A model generated the notes under the pieces. The model had not been told where the DNA came from, searched no databases, and worked only from the letters and a program-made list of their open reading frames with translations. Source: Alphaproteobacteria bacterium (GTDB lineage: Bacteria > Pseudomonadota > Alphaproteobacteria > Rs-D84). Taken from it: a stretch of 64,000 nucleotides of DNA. Shown piece by piece: positions 5,318 through 13,845 of the stretch; the first letter of the stretch is position 1, and every line of letters begins with the position of its first letter. Position numbers and translations under genes: made by a program. The stretch spans positions 113,506 through 177,505 of the forward strand of contig WRCC01000001.1 of NCBI GenBank assembly GCA_009784235.1, given 5' to 3'.

Positions 5318-6640
5318 TTGCTGGACAGGTGGGGTCCAGCAGTGTACAGTACCCCCGATATGTTCAGTTTTATAACGCGAAATTTTTCTTCCCTGGCATC
5401 TTTGCTGACCGCACCATTTCGGGCGTTTTGGCGGCTGGTCCGGCATATATTCCCAGCCCAAGACATAACCGCGATATCGGATGGCGGAAATTTATCCTAT
5501 TATCGAATGGAAACTTGGTACCGGTTTGGTAAATTTTGTGCCAAGGTTGGCCTGGTCATCTGGGCCGCATGGTCCAGCTATGTATTCGTATATCACCGCC
5601 CAATGTTGGACCGCCGTACGCGCCAGCTGAACGAATGTCGGATTCAACATGCCCAGCAGATGAGTGATTTAACCGTATTCTTCAAAGCATATTCCGATTT
5701 GCACAAAGAAATGAACACCATTGATGACCAATTGGCAAATTCAACACGCCTGTCCAAGGCAGACCGTGATAAATTATTGACGCGCCGCGTGACCACATGG
5801 GCCCAGATTGAAATGTTGGCAACCAGATTAAATACTATGTTCAATGATGCCGATTATGCGCCAGAATTTGTACGGTATTCTGATTTGGCGGTTGATTATG
5901 AAATAACACGTGAAGAAAATAATTTGTTGCGCACACAAAACAAAGCGCTAGAAGATGGCATGATTGCCATCGGTGACGCAAATACGCAAATTATTGAACG
6001 CGTATCAAAATTGACCAAGGAAAATACTGACGTACTGTCACGTGAATTGCGGAAAATTAATAATACGCTGACGTCGCTGGGGTTGTCTGAAAAATTGCTT
6101 GCCGCGCGGGCATTACAGACCAGTAACATAGTGGTCGGCGCAGCGGTCCAGCCGATGGCTTTCAATCCAAATACAGACCCGAAATATCTGGAATTGGCGG
6201 AAAAAATTGAATTGTGGCACGGATTGTCGCGTGCGCATTCAATGTTACCATTGGGTGCGCCGGTAACAAATCCGCGTATCACCAGTCCGTTTGGAAAACG
6301 CGAAGACCCGATTGACGGTGGTCCGGGTGTTCATCGCGGTATTGATTTTGCGGGTTCGGTCGGTACGCCACTGTTGGCTGTGGCACCGGGTCGTGTGACG
6401 TTTGTTGGCGAACGTTCTGGTTATGGAAAAACGGTTGAAATTGACCATGGCCTGGGCTTTACGACTTTGTATGCGCATTTGTCCAAGATATCAGTAGATA
6501 GGGGCGATATAGTCAAATCGCGCCAGATTATCGGCCTGGGCGGTAATTCGGGACGTTCGACTGGTCCGCATTTGCACTATGAAATCAGATATAATGATAA
6601 TCCGTTTAATCCATATGGATTTGTTAAGGGAGGGCAATAA
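5318..6640 (+). CDS. M23-family peptidoglycan endopeptidase with membrane anchor and coiled coil (true start may be downstream, e.g. ATG 5360)
   Basis: 'GVHRGIDFAGSVGTPLLAVAPGRVTFVGERSGYGKTVEIDHGLGFTTLYAHLS...STGPHLHYEIR' M23 motifs. Confidence 0.9.
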   Translation: MLDRWGPAVYSTPDMFSFITRNFSSLASLLTAPFRAFWRLVRHIFPAQDITAISDGGNLSYYRMETWYRFGKFCAKVGLVIWAAWSSYVFVYHRPMLDRRTRQLNECRIQHAQQMSDLTVFFKAYSDLHKEMNTIDDQLANSTRLSKADRDKLLTRRVTTWAQIEMLATRLNTMFNDADYAPEFVRYSDLAVDYEITREENNLLRTQNKALEDGMIAIGDANTQIIERVSKLTKENTDVLSRELRKINNTLTSLGLSEKLLAARALQTSNIVVGAAVQPMAFNPNTDPKYLELAEKIELWHGLSRAHSMLPLGAPVTNPRITSPFGKREDPIDGGPGVHRGIDFAGSVGTPLLAVAPGRVTFVGERSGYGKTVEIDHGLGFTTLYAHLSKISVDRGDIVKSRQIIGLGGNSGRSTGPHLHYEIRYNDNPFNPYGFVKGGQ

Positions 6641-6999
6641 TGTTTGCATTTACTAATTCAAAAGAGAAAATCAGTCCAACAATTGTTGGCGCTGGGTCAA
6701 AGGTTAACGGCGACATTATTACGACCGACGGCACAATTCAGATTCACGGAACGGTGAACGGAAATATTCGCGGCGACACGATTATTATCGCGCGCGGCGG
6801 CAAAGTTGTGGGTAAAATTACCACAAAGAATTTCTTTCTGCATGGCGCTATGGAAGGGCCAGCGACGGTAAATATCGCAAATGTTTTCGCAGATGCACAG
6901 ATGACCGGGACGCTGTCTTATATAAAATTGAACATCACGAATAATGATGGCTTGGAATGCAAATTGGTTGCAAGAAAAGGGGCCGCTTCCGATGAATAA
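6640..6999 (+). CDS. Bactofilin (polymer-forming cytoskeletal protein)
   Basis: 'TIVGAGSKVNGDIITTDGTIQIHGTVNGNIRGDTIIIARGGKVVGKI' bactofilin beta-helix; directly after M23 peptidase. Confidence 0.9.
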   Translation: MFAFTNSKEKISPTIVGAGSKVNGDIITTDGTIQIHGTVNGNIRGDTIIIARGGKVVGKITTKNFFLHGAMEGPATVNIANVFADAQMTGTLSYIKLNITNNDGLECKLVARKGAASDE

Positions 7000-7438
7000 A
7001 TCAATTACAAAGGTTTATATTGCGTCCGATCACCGTGGGGTAGGGCTGAAATTATATCTGATTGAAATGTTGTCTGCGGCGGGTTATGCGGTTGTAAATT
7101 TGGGTACGGATGACCCGACGGTAAAGGTTGATTTTCCCGAAATCACCCGGCGTGCAACGGATGCAATGTCGACGGACCCAGCATCACGCGGCATTGTAAT
7201 CTGCGGATTCGGGGGCGGGGTGGTTATTGCAGCAAACCGGTTTCGACATATTCGCGCAACAAGATGTTTCCAGCCGGACCACGCGCGCCACGACCGGATT
7301 CATGATGATACGAACGTGCTGGCACTTGCCGCCGAAGATATAGAACTAGAAATCGCAATGATGACGGCCCAAGCGTTCTTGGAAACACCATTTGATGCAA
7401 TTGAACGCCGGATTCGCCGGATACAAGAAATTTCTTAA
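6992..7438 (+). CDS. rpiB: Ribose-5-phosphate isomerase B
   Basis: 'VYIASDHRGVGLKLYLIEMLSAAGYAVVNLGT...GIVICGFGGGV'; ATG 6992 overlaps bactofilin stop. Confidence 0.85.
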   Translation: MNKSITKVYIASDHRGVGLKLYLIEMLSAAGYAVVNLGTDDPTVKVDFPEITRRATDAMSTDPASRGIVICGFGGGVVIAANRFRHIRATRCFQPDHARHDRIHDDTNVLALAAEDIELEIAMMTAQAFLETPFDAIERRIRRIQEIS

Positions 7439-7457
7439 AAAAAGATTATATTATGTT

Positions 7458-7490
7458 CAAAACTGTCCAATATATTGGACAGTTTTTTAT
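7458..7490. terminator. Rho-independent terminator (possibly bidirectional)
   Basis: Inverted repeat aactgtccaatatattggacagttttttat. Confidence 0.75.
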
Positions 7491-7560
7491 TGTGAAAACA
7501 TTCCGCTTTTTTGTCGAGCCCAAACCTGATAAAATAAATCCAAACATAAAGGAGGGCAAT

Positions 7561-7887
7561 ATGCCATTTTTTTCCGGCCTTTGGGTCGCTGCATTATTTA
7601 TTCTGGTATTAATAGTTCTGGTCTTGTTGGTCCAGATTCCAATCGCAATTGCGCGAAATCGTGGAATTACCGGCGGCGCATTTATATTCATTGTTGTTTT
7701 ATCATGGCTGGGGATTCTTTGCGGGGTGACGTGGGTTATTGCGTTGCTGTTGTCGCTTGTCCTGGGCGGTACACCGGGCCAAACATTGGCCGATGTTGAC
7801 CGTTTGGATAAATTACATAAATTAAAGAAAGCAGGCGTAATCACCCAAAAAGAATTCGACCGCGAAAAGCAGCGTATTTTGGGGTAA
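7561..7887 (+). CDS. Small membrane protein with C-terminal SHOCT-like domain
   Basis: SD aaggagg before ATG 7561; TM segments then 'LDKLHKLKKAGVITQKEFDREKQRIL' SHOCT motif. Confidence 0.8.
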   Translation: MPFFSGLWVAALFILVLIVLVLLVQIPIAIARNRGITGGAFIFIVVLSWLGILCGVTWVIALLLSLVLGGTPGQTLADVDRLDKLHKLKKAGVITQKEFDREKQRILG

Positions 7888-7914
7888 ATTCACGTAAAAT
7901 CAATGATTTGTTAT

Positions 7915-7944
7915 AACTTTACGGCCCGTTATCGGGCCGTAAGT
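7915..7944. terminator. Hairpin terminator-like element
   Basis: tttacggcccgttatcgggccgtaa inverted repeat downstream of the SHOCT ORF. Confidence 0.55.
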
Positions 7945-8076
7945 CATTGATAATGCAGTGGTTTCAATAAAAGTCGGGCATAAAAAGCGGAAAAATATAA
8001 ATAATTTTATTAGATTGATTTTGCAGTTTATTTTTACGGTGATCGGGCTGGACTTGCAAATTGCAATAACCATGTT

Positions 8077-8111
8077 GTTATTGCGAGGAGTGTAACGACG
8101 AAGCAATCCAG
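8077..8111 (+). repeat. Dispersed intergenic repeat (ATTGCGAGGAG..GACGAAGCAATCCAG family)
   Basis: ttattgcgaggagtgtaacgacgaagcaatccag; related copies elsewhere in window. Confidence 0.8.
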
Positions 8112-8135
8112 ATACGCGGCAGAATAGCATTAATC

Positions 8136-8158
8136 AAAGGCGCATAATATATATTATG
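8136..8158 (+). repeat. Left att: dif-like XerC/XerD site (direct repeat copy 1)
   Basis: aaaggcgcataatatatattatg, identical to 12477-12499; arms AAGGCGCATAA / TATATA / TTATGCATTAA resemble E. coli dif. Confidence 0.85.
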
Positions 8159-8213
8159 CATTAAAAAAGAATAGCAAGTAAAACCATCATCAAGATAATA
8201 AACTGCCAATTCT

Positions 8214-9011
8214 TCATAAATGTCCTTTTTTCTTAGACTGTTTATAATTTAACATAAAGTTATCACGAACGTCAAGCGCTTTTTTTGGATTAGCTCCACG
8301 CAGACCTTTTATATCAGAATTATCTAATCTCCACAATTTATGCAAGAGAGATGGTTCATCTGGAATTTCAGATTCAATACCGAGCTTAACTTTATAAAAT
8401 CTGGGTAAACCAACTTTGCAACCCTTTCGCCATACAAATGGAACGTCTTCAGAGCCTGGTACGCTCTTATAACGGACTCTGGATACGTCGCCAATACCAG
8501 GACGCCTGGACATGATAGCAAATGGAGACGAGGGCAAATTTGATGTGTCTTTACCAATAAACTTTTTAAGATGGTAACCAGCAACATATTGTGCACTATC
8601 AGGTGTAAGCGCTCCAAAATGAACCTGACCATAAGGCCATTGCGGTAAATCAACATAGCCCGGTTTACCAACAGGAGAATAACCAAGAAATGCAACATGA
8701 TAATGTGGGCGCATCGATTTTTCACCATACTCACCACAGGCATAATATTTAAATACATGGCCGGATTTACGCATACGTTTAAAGAAAAGTTGTAATTCTC
8801 TAACGAAAACAACATTAGGCATATCCTCATCTCGATAAGTTAAAGTCATAAAACAATTATCTTTATATTTTGAGGCCTCATGCATAATACGAATAGACCA
8901 TGAACGAGCATGATTTATACGACAAGGTATACACTGACCACAAGATACTACAACACGCTTATCAACACCATCATTCCATTTCGATGGTTTTAAAGGAAAT
9001 AAACAAATCAT
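8214..9011 (-). CDS. Microvirus replication initiation protein (VP4)
   Basis: 'CGQCIPCRINHARSWSIRIMHEA...CFMTLTYRDEDMP...KSMRPHYHVAFLG...YVAGYHLKKFIGKD', typical microvirus Rep motifs. Confidence 0.92.
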   Translation of the reverse strand: MICLFPLKPSKWNDGVDKRVVVSCGQCIPCRINHARSWSIRIMHEASKYKDNCFMTLTYRDEDMPNVVFVRELQLFFKRMRKSGHVFKYYACGEYGEKSMRPHYHVAFLGYSPVGKPGYVDLPQWPYGQVHFGALTPDSAQYVAGYHLKKFIGKDTSNLPSSPFAIMSRRPGIGDVSRVRYKSVPGSEDVPFVWRKGCKVGLPRFYKVKLGIESEIPDEPSLLHKLWRLDNSDIKGLRGANPKKALDVRDNFMLNYKQSKKKGHL

Positions 9012-9039
9012 AGCTTAACCTCTATTTAGAGGTTAAGCT
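9012..9039 (-). promoter_or_regulatory. Hairpin overlapping J-like stop codon and VP4 ribosome-binding site
   Basis: Perfect 12-bp stem agcttaacctct/agaggttaagct with 4-nt loop, immediately before VP4 ATG (9011). Confidence 0.7.
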
Positions 9040-9158
9040 CTACGACCACGATATGTAGACACACGAGCTCGCTTAGGACGACGAAAGAATTTTTTAAAGC
9101 CACCAAAGACTTTACGAGCACGATTAAATGTACGTTTATATTTACGACGAAATGCCAT
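9033..9158 (-). CDS. Small basic DNA-packaging/J (VP8)-like protein, 41 aa
   Basis: Manual translation MAFRRKYKRTFNRARKVFGGFKKFFRRPKRARVSTYRGRRA*; below the ORF-track length cutoff; Arg/Lys-rich like microvirus J proteins. Confidence 0.8.
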   Translation of the reverse strand: MAFRRKYKRTFNRARKVFGGFKKFFRRPKRARVSTYRGRRA

Positions 9159-9172
9159 AACAGACTCCTTTT

Positions 9173-9808
9173 TTAACGGTTATTTATCCACCTAACTATT
9201 CTGTTAGGATGATTCTTATCATCAATAGATTGACGCCAAGAATTAGCTCTTTCACCAGCACGATTAATAGCACCACGAACACTAGAAACAGCACCACGAG
9301 CAATAGACTCATAAGCAGACTCATGAGACTGAGCACCAGGACGGCTTTCTACAACTCCGGCATTGTGAGTAGCAATACGAGCAGCCGCAGAAGCTTCACG
9401 AGTTTGCTCAGCAAGTAACTTATTCTGAGCACCTAAATTACGAGTACTGGCCATAGTATGAGACAATGTAGCCAAATTCATAGCATGATCAAGGGGGTTA
9501 GAACCTTGAACTCCCGGAGCTTCAACTCCAGAACTTCCAGAACTTATTCCACCAAACAGGGGATTAATACCAGCATCTTCAAGACGACCACGTTGATTAA
9601 TCGGATCCGAATACTCTTGCTCACGACGCTCAGCATCTAATTGCTCAGCACGACGAGCTTTATTACCAGTAATAGTCTCATGTATAACACCACCAGGCAT
9701 AACTGACTTAACGGCACTATAACCACCACCAGTGGACATATTAAAGGTCAAATCTTTTGCCCATCTATTCCAAGGATTTTTAAAAACTTTTTTTAAGAAC
9801 TTCACCAA
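9173..9808 (-). CDS. Microvirus DNA pilot protein (VP2)
   Basis: 'EYSDPINQRGRLEDAGINPLFGG' conserved VP2 motif; Gly/Ala/Ser-rich. Confidence 0.85.
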   Translation of the reverse strand: MVKFLKKVFKNPWNRWAKDLTFNMSTGGGYSAVKSVMPGGVIHETITGNKARRAEQLDAERREQEYSDPINQRGRLEDAGINPLFGGISSGSSGVEAPGVQGSNPLDHAMNLATLSHTMASTRNLGAQNKLLAEQTREASAAARIATHNAGVVESRPGAQSHESAYESIARGAVSSVRGAINRAGERANSWRQSIDDKNHPNRIVRWINNR

Positions 9809-9829
9809 TAACTCCGTTTTTTGGTGTCA

Positions 9830-9867
9830 GTCCGCACTGTTACATCAAGAAGAGATACAGTGCGGAC
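9830..9867. promoter_or_regulatory. Intergenic hairpin between VP3-like and VP2 genes
   Basis: Perfect 11-bp stem gtccgcactgt / acagtgcggac, 16-nt loop. Confidence 0.6.
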
Positions 9868-9875
9868 ATTTTTGG

Positions 9876-10430
9876 TCACTCAACTTTGTTATCGTTCGCC
9901 GAAGGTTCATCCATCGGCTTTTTGTCGGCCTTAGCCTTTTGAATTGGCTGGCCGACCTCCGCCTCGGATTCACCATCGGCTTCTTCTACGAAGGAGTGAC
10001 CTCTAGACTCGAGATAGTTTTCAATCATATTCATTCGAATATCATATTGCTCGAGTATATCTTCGGCTTGTTCAATGGACAATCCGGATAGCTCTTCAGG
10101 GGTATATTCTTTGGCATCTTTATCTTCCAAAGAAGTTTGCACCCATTCGGGCAAAGCTACACCATTGTTTATAAGACCATTTACGTCCTTTTTAGACATA
10201 TTATGGATACGAACGCACCTATCTACCATCTGTTGTATTGATTCGCCTGTATCAGGCTCTGTTTCATCAGGAAGAGCATTGTACTCATAACCCAAACTAC
10301 GCATAGTACAACAAGTATTTAAAACTTTAGTATCGTATTGCAGTTTTTCATCCTTGGTGAAACTTTCACCAAGGGGGTCTACACACTGAAATTCAACACA
10401 ATCATAATTAGCTTTATATCTAGAAAACAT
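9876..10430 (-). CDS. Putative microvirus internal scaffolding protein (VP3-like)
   Basis: Position next to the capsid gene, size and acidic C-terminus; sequence similarity not verified. Confidence 0.65.
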   Translation of the reverse strand: MFSRYKANYDCVEFQCVDPLGESFTKDEKLQYDTKVLNTCCTMRSLGYEYNALPDETEPDTGESIQQMVDRCVRIHNMSKKDVNGLINNGVALPEWVQTSLEDKDAKEYTPEELSGLSIEQAEDILEQYDIRMNMIENYLESRGHSFVEEADGESEAEVGQPIQKAKADKKPMDEPSANDNKVE

Positions 10431-10441
10431 AACAAACTCCT

Positions 10442-12031
10442 TTAAGCATGATCTATACGACCAGACGTTCCACGTTTAGGCATTGGACGCAAAGCTTTAA
10501 TGTGATGCATCATTTCAACTACCCAAGGTGACTGATCAGTTATCTTAAATGGACGACCACCGGGACGACACTGAATAAAATCAGAATTAAGTGATTGCTC
10601 ATTAGAAAAAACACGCTGCCATGCAAAAAAATCAAGATTAGTCTTAACAAGTCCATGAACAGAAGGGAGAATATGACGATACTCATCCCAAACGTCTTGA
10701 TAACCAAACACAGCATTAGGGTTACGACCTTGAGTTGCATCTACTTCATATTTATAAACAGGCTGTTGAGATAAATGAGCAAAGACAGGAATATAATGGT
10801 CAAATCGAGTCAACTTTGTAAAATGACGAGATAATGACTGTTGATACTGTCCTTTCGGGCGAATATATATAAATCCTAAGACCCATCCGTCTTCAACAAA
10901 AGACTTAGTAAATTCATGGGTCTCTTGAGCAGTAAATCCATGACCACCAAGTTGTCCAAGGGGTTGGTCACCAGAAGTTTCAGAAGTCTGCAGTACTTCA
11001 CGGAAAATAACAGGAGATTGACCACCACCAAGAAATTCAGCACGCTGTAAACGACTATCAGGGGGAATAACATTAAACAAATTACGCAAATGCTCTGTAT
11101 AACGGTTACCACCGTCCATATTTATTTCAAACAATAACTGAGTCTGAAAACCTTGACGAACATCCGGCACAGGAATACCGGCCGCAAGAGAAGTCTTAGC
11201 AACCAAATTCAAAGGTTTAACACCTGTAGGAGCCGCAGTAGCATTAGCAGTAGTACCAACAATACCAGTAGTACTCACACCAAGAACTTGATTCTGAGCA
11301 GGAAATGAACCATTAAAATAAGCCATACGCAAAACTTCATTAGCAGTAATAGAGTTATCTGTAGGACTAGTCACAACTGGAGAATCGCCAATAAGGGGAA
11401 TAGTAACAACTGGACCTTTTTGACGCTGTTGAACAGAAGAAGTTAAATAATCTCTGCCCCAATTTACACGGGGCATACCACCTCTAGAAGTGGGCAAATC
11501 ACCAAAGTAATCTCTCCACCAATTTAAATTAACTTGATTACCAGACGTACGCGGATAATCGACTTCAGGTTGTATATTTTGATCACGTATCCAATCAGAC
11601 CAAACTTTAGCAATAGCACGCAAAGGCTCTTCAGTAACAGCAATACCACGAAAATCTAAAGGAAAGCCAATATAATCCAAAATAGATTCAGCCTGAGCAG
11701 TGCCGGCATAAACATGACTCGGGGCAGTAGGGGGAGTAATATTATCAACAGACAAATCACGACCATCTTTAGCTCCTGTAATCATGGTTTCCCAATCATC
11801 AAACAATAAACGATTAGGTACAAAGAAATAACGAGTATAAGCTTTTACTTGATGCATAAGCGGAAATAAGGGAACATTATAAGCACGAACAACCATACGA
11901 GTCTTAACATTCCAAACATCACCGGGTAAAACACGTTGTACAAGCATAGGATTAAAAGTACCTGTATCCATAGTAAAAACACGGGGATGACTTAAATTAA
12001 ATAAATTACGACGGTTATTTTTTACTCTCAT
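10442..12031 (-). CDS. Microvirus major capsid protein (VP1)
   Basis: 'NLSHPRVFTMDTGTFNPMLVQRVLPGDVWNVKTRMVVRAYNVPLFPLMHQVKAYTRYFFVPNRLLFDDWETMITG' typical of Microviridae MCP (F/VP1). Confidence 0.95.
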   Translation of the reverse strand: MRVKNNRRNLFNLSHPRVFTMDTGTFNPMLVQRVLPGDVWNVKTRMVVRAYNVPLFPLMHQVKAYTRYFFVPNRLLFDDWETMITGAKDGRDLSVDNITPPTAPSHVYAGTAQAESILDYIGFPLDFRGIAVTEEPLRAIAKVWSDWIRDQNIQPEVDYPRTSGNQVNLNWWRDYFGDLPTSRGGMPRVNWGRDYLTSSVQQRQKGPVVTIPLIGDSPVVTSPTDNSITANEVLRMAYFNGSFPAQNQVLGVSTTGIVGTTANATAAPTGVKPLNLVAKTSLAAGIPVPDVRQGFQTQLLFEINMDGGNRYTEHLRNLFNVIPPDSRLQRAEFLGGGQSPVIFREVLQTSETSGDQPLGQLGGHGFTAQETHEFTKSFVEDGWVLGFIYIRPKGQYQQSLSRHFTKLTRFDHYIPVFAHLSQQPVYKYEVDATQGRNPNAVFGYQDVWDEYRHILPSVHGLVKTNLDFFAWQRVFSNEQSLNSDFIQCRPGGRPFKITDQSPWVVEMMHHIKALRPMPKRGTSGRIDHA

Positions 12032-12075
12032 ATCAAGCTCCTATATCAAACTCAATGCAGTACCTAAGCCTGCAA

Positions 12076-12104
12076 GAAAAGCAGTCCCATATTTCAGGAC
12101 TGCT
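12076..12104 (-). terminator. Rho-independent terminator inside the prophage, between the 106-aa ORF and VP1
   Basis: Minus strand gcagtcctgaaatatgggactgcttttctt. Confidence 0.65.
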
Positions 12105-12113
12105 GTAAATATT

Positions 12114-12434
12114 TTAATCATCTTCATTCTCCGGCATATCATCTGTAGTCGAAACACAGAAATTTTCACAAATACGCATATCAAACTCAAACAATTTATC
12201 TTCATCTAATTTATAATCATCAACTTTAACAGCTAACAATTCCTTAAACTTTTTAATAACTTCATCATAATTAAATTCTTCACAATCTTGGATATAAGAA
12301 TACAGCATCCGAGAAACAGAATTCATAAAAGCAGTAGATATAAATTCAGCAGTAAAAGTAGCAGAGAGAGAACCCAACTTTTTTTGATTCATACCGGCAC
12401 GAAGTTTCAAAAGAGAAGATTTTTTCATATTCAT
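12114..12434 (-). CDS. Uncharacterised prophage protein (106 aa), possible VP5-position gene
   Basis: Within dif-bounded element, SD aaggag upstream of ATG; acidic C-terminus; no family recognised. Confidence 0.65.
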   Translation of the reverse strand: MNMKKSSLLKLRAGMNQKKLGSLSATFTAEFISTAFMNSVSRMLYSYIQDCEEFNYDEVIKKFKELLAVKVDDYKLDEDKLFEFDMRICENFCVSTTDDMPENEDD

Positions 12435-12476
12435 TATAACACTCCTTGTGTTTTGACAATTATTAATATTAAGAAT

Positions 12477-12499
12477 AAAGGCGCATAATATATATTATG
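12477..12499 (+). repeat. Right att: dif-like XerC/XerD site (direct repeat copy 2)
   Basis: aaaggcgcataatatatattatg; arms AAGGCGCATAA / TATATA / TTATGTATAGT. Confidence 0.85.
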
Positions 12500-12510
12500 T
12501 ATAGTTCAAG

Positions 12511-12561
12511 ATGTATAGTGGCACATATTGGCAAAATTTGCCAATATGTGCCACTATACAT
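12511..12561. repeat. Perfect palindrome, 25-bp arms around a single central A
   Basis: atgtatagtggcacatattggcaaa-a-tttgccaatatgtgccactatacat. Confidence 0.95.
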
Positions 12562-12815
12562 CGCGTGCCGCAAACATATACATAATATATAAATAATTTA
12601 CTTCAAATTATGTTCGGAATAGATTGAATATTCATAATAATTTTAATTTATTAAATCAGTCTGAGAAATAAAAACTACGGTTTTGGGATTTGTGGAAGGC
12701 AAGCTTTGAGACGACAATCACCCCGCTTTCATCATTCTTATAACCTCACGGCTTATTTTGCGGTTTCTTGCAGGATTGCTATTGACGGCTTTGGTTTTAT
12801 TGGTATTATAAAAGA

Positions 12816-13319
12816 ATGAAAAATTTAGAATTAGAAAAAGACCCCATTGCAATTGCTCTACAAACCTTGTCTTCTGAGGACATTGTAGCCAATTTCAATG
12901 AAATACTAAAAACAGCTTTTTATCCCAATATTCATGTCGGAAAAGTTTGCCGAATTTATCATGCAATACTAATTATTGAGCAAGCAAAAGGGTATCTGGA
13001 AGCACCGCAAATTTTACGGTTATGTAAAGAAATTGGGTGGGATTGGCGTGTATGTAAAATACTTTTACAATCTGCTAATCTAAATGCAAAATTAAATACA
13101 AGGCAGCGTATATTTTTGATTAAAAAAGCGCATTGTACTTTTAATTCATCGTTATCATTTAATAAAATGTTTGCACACGGCATTTATAATTATCAAGAAC
13201 AAATTATCAAAAAATTTAATTATCATAATCAGCCCGCAGATATTAAAATGCAGGTTTTGAATTCAGCGCAGAGATTAGTTTCGTTTAAAATTAATTGCCA
13301 TAAACAAGGTTCTTTATGA
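12816..13319 (+). CDS. Hypothetical protein, AT-rich, of unknown function
   Basis: 167-aa intact ORF in visibly AT-rich sequence; no recognised domain. Confidence 0.55.
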   Translation: MKNLELEKDPIAIALQTLSSEDIVANFNEILKTAFYPNIHVGKVCRIYHAILIIEQAKGYLEAPQILRLCKEIGWDWRVCKILLQSANLNAKLNTRQRIFLIKKAHCTFNSSLSFNKMFAHGIYNYQEQIIKKFNYHNQPADIKMQVLNSAQRLVSFKINCHKQGSL

Positions 13320-13320
13320 C

Positions 13321-13845
13321 CTATTCTGGCTTGTCCATTGGTGTTGGCGTTGTGGCGGCCAAGCTTTTCATTAAATCAAGTATCATCCGGCGTTTGTCAT
13401 CAGTTGGCAATTTCCAGTACAAATTCACAAGTTGAAGCGATTCATTGTTGCCCAGGGGGTCGTTTGGTGATGGTTCGGCGACTTTGTGAATCTTGGTTTT
13501 GCCACCAGTGTCGGTTTGGGATATATTTGGATGTCGCGCATGTTGATGTGGCAGTCCGCTGAAAAAGAATGCAACCGGCGCGTCCAGCGCGATACCAATT
13601 TGAAACAAGCGCGATGCAGACACCCGATTACCGGCTTTTTCATATTTTTGCATCTGTTGGAATGTTATGCCGCATTTATCGGCCAAGACTTTCTGAGTAA
13701 TGCCAAGCATATTGCGGCGTAATTGAATACGCTGGCCGATATAGGAATCAACCGCAGTCGGAATAGAATTGTTAACAGAATTGTTAACGATAGCGGCGGA
13801 ATTCTTGTTGCTGGGCAAGATTCTGTCTTTGGTCATCGTTGGCAT
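13321..13845 (-). CDS. XRE-family helix-turn-helix transcriptional regulator
   Basis: 'IGQRIQLRRNMLGITQKVLADKCGITFQQMQKYEKAGNRVSASRLFQIGIAL' HTH_3. Confidence 0.9.
   Translation of the reverse strand: MPTMTKDRILPSNKNSAAIVNNSVNNSIPTAVDSYIGQRIQLRRNMLGITQKVLADKCGITFQQMQKYEKAGNRVSASRLFQIGIALDAPVAFFFSGLPHQHARHPNISQTDTGGKTKIHKVAEPSPNDPLGNNESLQLVNLYWKLPTDDKRRMILDLMKSLAATTPTPMDKPE

Follow-up and report, generated by a model that had tools for sequence, protein, structure and literature searches.

An integrase-less microvirus prophage at dif in a reduced-genome alphaproteobacterium, presumably integrated by host XerC/XerD

Positions 8137-12505 of the window, the stretch of 64,000 nucleotides analysed here, almost certainly represent a microvirus prophage that lacks an integrase, occupies the dif site of its alphaproteobacterial host and was integrated by the presumed action of the host proteins XerC and XerD. 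The chromosomal site dif is where host XerC/XerD resolve chromosome dimers. We infer the catalysis of integration by XerC/XerD, and likewise the double-stranded nature of the substrate, the order of strand exchange and the reversibility of the event. Xer hijacking by microviruses has already been published, and the element presented here is a further member from a little-studied host group.

The prophage and its two junctions

The 23-mer AAAGGCGCATAATATATATTATG flanks an intact prophage with two identical copies at 8136-8158 and 12477-12499, as stated in a preliminary description of this DNA, and the distance spanned between the copies is 4341 bp. In the whole genome, a 3-contig assembly of 874,588 bp in which the prophage lies at 121.6-126.0 kb of the window's contig, the 23-mer was found only at the two prophage ends. 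The longest direct repeat expected by chance was clearly shorter, with a maximum of 17 bp and a mean of 12.2 bp in 1000 first-order Markov resamples of positions 7800-12900. Since the assembly looks metagenomic in type and the 23-mer is common to phage and host, a free circular phage might have been joined to a host contig via this sequence. We regard such an artefact as very improbable: assembly k-mers are usually longer than an overlap of 23 bp, a contig of 377 kb contains the prophage together with both junctions, and dif prophages recur in independent genomes, in one of them as a tandem pair.

All prophage ORFs are located on the minus strand; their products are a capsid protein, a Rep protein, a pilot protein with a weak match, and small proteins. 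The major capsid protein VP1 (10442-12031, 529 aa; PF02305, 3e-78; phrog_514, 2e-128) is of the Microviridae family, and in agreement with this the element also encodes a rolling-circle replication initiation protein Rep (8214-9011, 265 aa; PF23343, 1e-17; phrog_942, 8e-68) and has a genome within 4-6 kb, which is probably circular as judged from the repeats. The 211-aa protein encoded at 9173-9808 is probably a VP2-like DNA pilot protein, as suggested by its position and a weak match to phrog_8689 (0.007). Two further products had no family match in profile searches: a very basic 41-aa protein (9033-9158), whose composition and position point to a probable DNA-binding, J/VP8-like function, and a 184-aa protein (9876-10430), which by its position is probably a VP3-like internal scaffolding protein. 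The remaining ORFs encode 54 aa (12041-12205; known as an ORF only) and 106 aa (12114-12434; no family match) and overlap each other. Profile searches of the prophage ORFs matched no integrase, and a whole-genome scan placed tyrosine recombinase matches at four loci, all of them elsewhere in the genome, in line with the earlier view that the phage carries none. With a dif-like attP, no integrase of its own and a location within the host dif, which follows from the single-copy dif of relatives and from KOPS convergence, the element has the properties of an IMEX (integrative mobile element exploiting Xer).

The left hybrid site (8137-8164, plus strand) consists of the XerC arm AAGGCGCATAA, the centre TATATA and the phage-derived XerD arm TTATGCATTAA, while the right hybrid site (12478-12505, plus strand) is the regenerated complete host dif AAGGCGCATAATATATATTATGTATAGT, identical to dif of 18 other genomes and supported by KOPS. 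Both copies agree in 11/11 positions of the XerC arm and 6/6 of the centre, but only in 7/11 of the XerD arm, and the mismatch is confined to the outer half of this arm (CATTAA left, TATAGT right). The assumption that one half-site derives from the phage and one from the host can be specified: the right site is host dif throughout, and the XerD arm of the left site comes from the phage. The proposed likeness to dif of E. coli holds as well: the XerC arm is equal in its eight inner bases and the XerD arm in its first five, and the centre differs in a single base (TATATA vs TGTATA).

On the XerD side of dif in the window (12489-12591) we also observed a perfect hairpin with arms of 26 nt (12510-12562), which is unique in the genome. 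It is nested within an inverted repeat of the dif centre and XerD arm, whose 15-nt copy lies at 12577-12591.

The host dif site and the replication terminus

Removal of the element was predicted to leave AAGGCGCATAATATATATTATGTATAGT as the host site, and this prediction is borne out by other alphaproteobacterial genomes. A scan of GTDB genomes with the 22-mer core yielded 38 stretches with a single match in each, 18 of which extend as the predicted empty site, present as a single copy. Within the host's order, GGCGCATAATNTATATTATG is present in 128 of 205 genomes and is single in each of them, with the exceptions of the window's genome and one MAG of 68% completeness. The prophage-free relatives G003, G004 and G005, checked for the core as had been suggested, each have a single dif that adjoins the host genes flanking the prophage in the window. 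By synteny, the genes of the left flank (5318-7887; among them RpiB and a SHOCT-domain gene at 7453-7887, plus strand) are next to dif in all three relatives, and in G004 and G005 a helix-turn-helix gene of the right flank (13321-13845, minus strand) is found across dif from them. Relative to the SHOCT gene, dif is oriented in G003 as in the window but the other way round in G004 and G005; the junction region has therefore been rearranged between species, and the reversal counts against the integration reading. Judged from isolate names, the relatives are probably termite-gut and rumen MAGs. Enterousia MAGs, which belong to the GTDB order Rs-D84, have reported sizes of ∼0.75-1.0 Mb (PMC12306168). 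The data provide a well-supported dif for a reduced-genome order (probably Rs-D84), with an empty site that was first predicted and then found, and identify these bacteria as hosts of microviruses.

The position of dif at the terminus was assessed by KOPS orientation and cumulative GC skew, both proposed beforehand. For KOPS we used the E. coli motif GGGNAGGG and assumed it for this host, an assumption supported by its sharp polarity in these genomes. On the window's contig the motif is forward in 7/7 cases at 5-120 kb and reverse in 16/17 cases beyond 130 kb, switching at dif (7/0 left vs 1/16 right, forward/reverse; Fisher p=2.3e-5). The single-contig relative G036 has its dif at 209,769 and exhibits the same switch (20/2 vs 1/26, forward/reverse; p=1.6e-10). 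The fused site, which was expected once per genome at the skew inflection, is indeed a single site in other genomes; however, the cumulative GC skew maximum of G036 (123.7 kb) is 86 kb away from dif, and the window's contig has no clear reversal of cumulative GC skew. GC skew did not pinpoint dif in either sequence and was dropped as a terminus marker, and KOPS was therefore taken for locating the terminus. GC skew is the exception among genomic tests that otherwise support the reading in nearly every respect.

The host encodes the machinery required for the proposed integration: an XerD-like protein (best Xer equivalog TIGR02225, 9.5e-92), an XerC-like protein (TIGR02224, 1.5e-86), both below the curated cut-offs, and an FtsK with the XerD-activating gamma domain (1.2e-21). 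The other two tyrosine recombinase matches are a 438-aa ORF on contig C1 and a weak match on C3. In view of these two, another recombinase, or else homologous recombination, might have inserted the prophage with its position at dif being incidental. This is very improbable, given that the crossover falls within the dif core and the remaining 8/8 prophages of the order are also found at dif; for RecA-type homologous recombination, 23 bp are very short. The 438-aa tyrosine integrase (1348-2664 of locus L005, at ∼245 kb of C1 in the window's genome, G000) is by score neither XerC nor XerD and suggests another integrated element on the window's contig.

Host dif centres vary (TATATA, TGTATA, TTTATA, TGTCTA), and the centre of the phage copy equals that of its own host in the window's genome as well as in G195, G189 and G042. 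In several loci of relatives, dif is followed after 21-24 nt by a XerD arm in inverted orientation, ACTATACATAA (L065, L067 (twice), L070, L073, L075, L084); it also occurs in L107 near position 6833. Exact matches to it are scarce by chance (2 in 3000 shuffles), and no prophage was detected beside dif in the relatives represented by L065, L067, L070, L073, L075 and L084. Either a host feature or a remnant of lost Xer-using elements may account for the inverted arm.

Proposed integration mechanism and known systems

We propose that the circular phage genome would bring in a dif-like attP, whose XerC arm, 6-bp centre and inner XerD arm equal those of the host and whose outer XerD arm is degenerate (CATTAA). 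Most likely, host XerC/XerD would synapse the double-stranded replicative form with dif, and strand exchange inside the shared centre would leave the right end, on the XerD side, with a full functional dif and the left end, on the XerC side, with a degraded copy. Since a complete dif is kept at the right, chromosome dimer resolution should be retained; excision is probably limited by the left site, which is the weaker one.

The site, with XerC arm and centre equal to host dif and a divergent XerD arm, is of the type described for TLCphi and the gonococcal genomic island (PMC5357621), neither of which is a microvirus. For these two elements the XerD-first mechanism was demonstrated experimentally (PMC5357621), whereas for the window's phage it would follow by analogy only. 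In VGJphi the attP centre differs from dif, and CTXphi uses two inverted sites (PMC5357621). We rejected both designs for the window's phage: the centre is identical in 6/6 positions, unlike an attP that differs on the XerD side, and its reconstructed attP contains neither an inverted partner site nor a strong hairpin of the CTXphi type that would allow folding. Since the site design agrees with TLCphi and the gonococcal island and those of VGJphi and CTXphi do not fit, integration of double-stranded DNA appears favoured. The identical centre makes XerC-first and XerD-first exchange both possible.

It is conceivable, if rather doubtful, that Xer acted at dif by a XerC half-reaction only, as in VGJphi or CTXphi, and that replication or repair resolved the junction. 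The XerC side is indeed the fully shared side, and in three other prophages of the order (those of G195 and G176 and the right-hand one of G006) it is mainly the XerC arm that is shared, and inverted attP pairs are present. However, the window's centre is identical also in its XerD-proximal half, in contrast to what is described for VGJphi, and the lack of an inverted partner or strong hairpin in the reconstructed attP also speaks against this possibility.

Among the closest known systems are the enterogokushovirus prophages of Escherichia (Kirchberger and Ochman 2020; PMC7062461). Like these, the window's phage is a microvirus of ∼4.3-4.7 kb without integrase that is located at dif; one flank bears the restored host dif and the other the dif copy of the phage (PMC7062461). 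The two differ in that the window's host belongs to a different order, and in Escherichia both the spacer and the XerD arm vary among the phage copies, whereas in the window the spacer is identical and the outer XerD arm alone differs. Integration of EC6098 requires xerC, xerD and the phage dif (PMC7062461); this was established by experiment in the Escherichia system. The microvirus-related BMV proviruses of Bacteroidetes are also situated at dif-like sites (Krupovic and Forterre 2011; PMC3091885), but in another host phylum. BMV4-6 carry an extra dif-like site that was called reminiscent of CTXphi (PMC3091885), while the window's phage has a single site.

Microviruses of the order and free relatives

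The PF02305 search revealed microvirus capsid genes in 7 of 208 genomes of the order, with nine prophages including that of the window, and the eight others (from six genomes) are all at dif-like sites. In G195, G176 and the right-hand prophage of G006, the XerC side is common with host dif; in the two tandem copies of G189, in G042 and in the left-hand prophage of G006 it is the XerD side. Read by eye, G167 resembles the latter group, with a spacer longer by one base. The reconstructed attP regions of G195, G176, G006 (both) and G167 contain dif-like sites in inverted pairs, which fold into long hairpins and are similar to the extra dif-like site of BMV4-6 (PMC3091885); those of the window, G189 and G042 lack such pairs. 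The coding strand of the right-hand G006 phage is opposite to the CTXphi-like prediction, so the idea of a folded attP does not cover every case. The capsid tree had too weak support at depth to link attachment type with phage lineage. A class-wide capsid search of 395 genomes gave one further prophage, in G502, outside the dif comparison.

Two arrangements were observed besides. In G006 (L106, 4393-13790) one dif is placed between two microvirus prophages of opposite orientation, one sharing the XerD side and the other the XerC side of dif, and in G189 (L110, 5961-15384) two near-identical microvirus prophages of 4698 bp form a tandem array at dif.

We tentatively suggest that, within this single order of gut alphaproteobacteria with reduced genomes, different ways of using the same dif have evolved repeatedly in microviruses: a single TLCphi/GGI-like site (window), an XerD-side tandem (G189), and folded inverted pairs (G176, G195, G006, G167), through which direct integration of the packaged single-stranded genome, as in CTXphi, could be possible. 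Some of this variety of attachment designs within one order was probably unreported before, and it offers natural material on how ssDNA phages switch Xer strategies. We consider these mixed designs to be of most interest, together with a possible attP-based linking of free gut microviruses to hosts.

When 50,697 phage records were compared with a 32-mer from the attP of the window, 43 matched; among the matches listed, most were circular microviruses, and rodent faeces were their main source. No good attP match was present in PQ006662, the nearest relative by capsid. Ten free phages were inspected, and as they had been picked by similarity to the query, the conservation seen is partly due to ascertainment: the XerC arm is present in all of them (in one case with two changes), the centre matches fully or nearly so, their site is antiparallel to the genes as in the window and mostly intergenic, and 3-6 of the 6 outer XerD bases equal those of the host dif. 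A similar attP motif is present in free gut microviruses, so the centre and arms of this motif could be of use in assigning hosts to uncultured gut microviruses.
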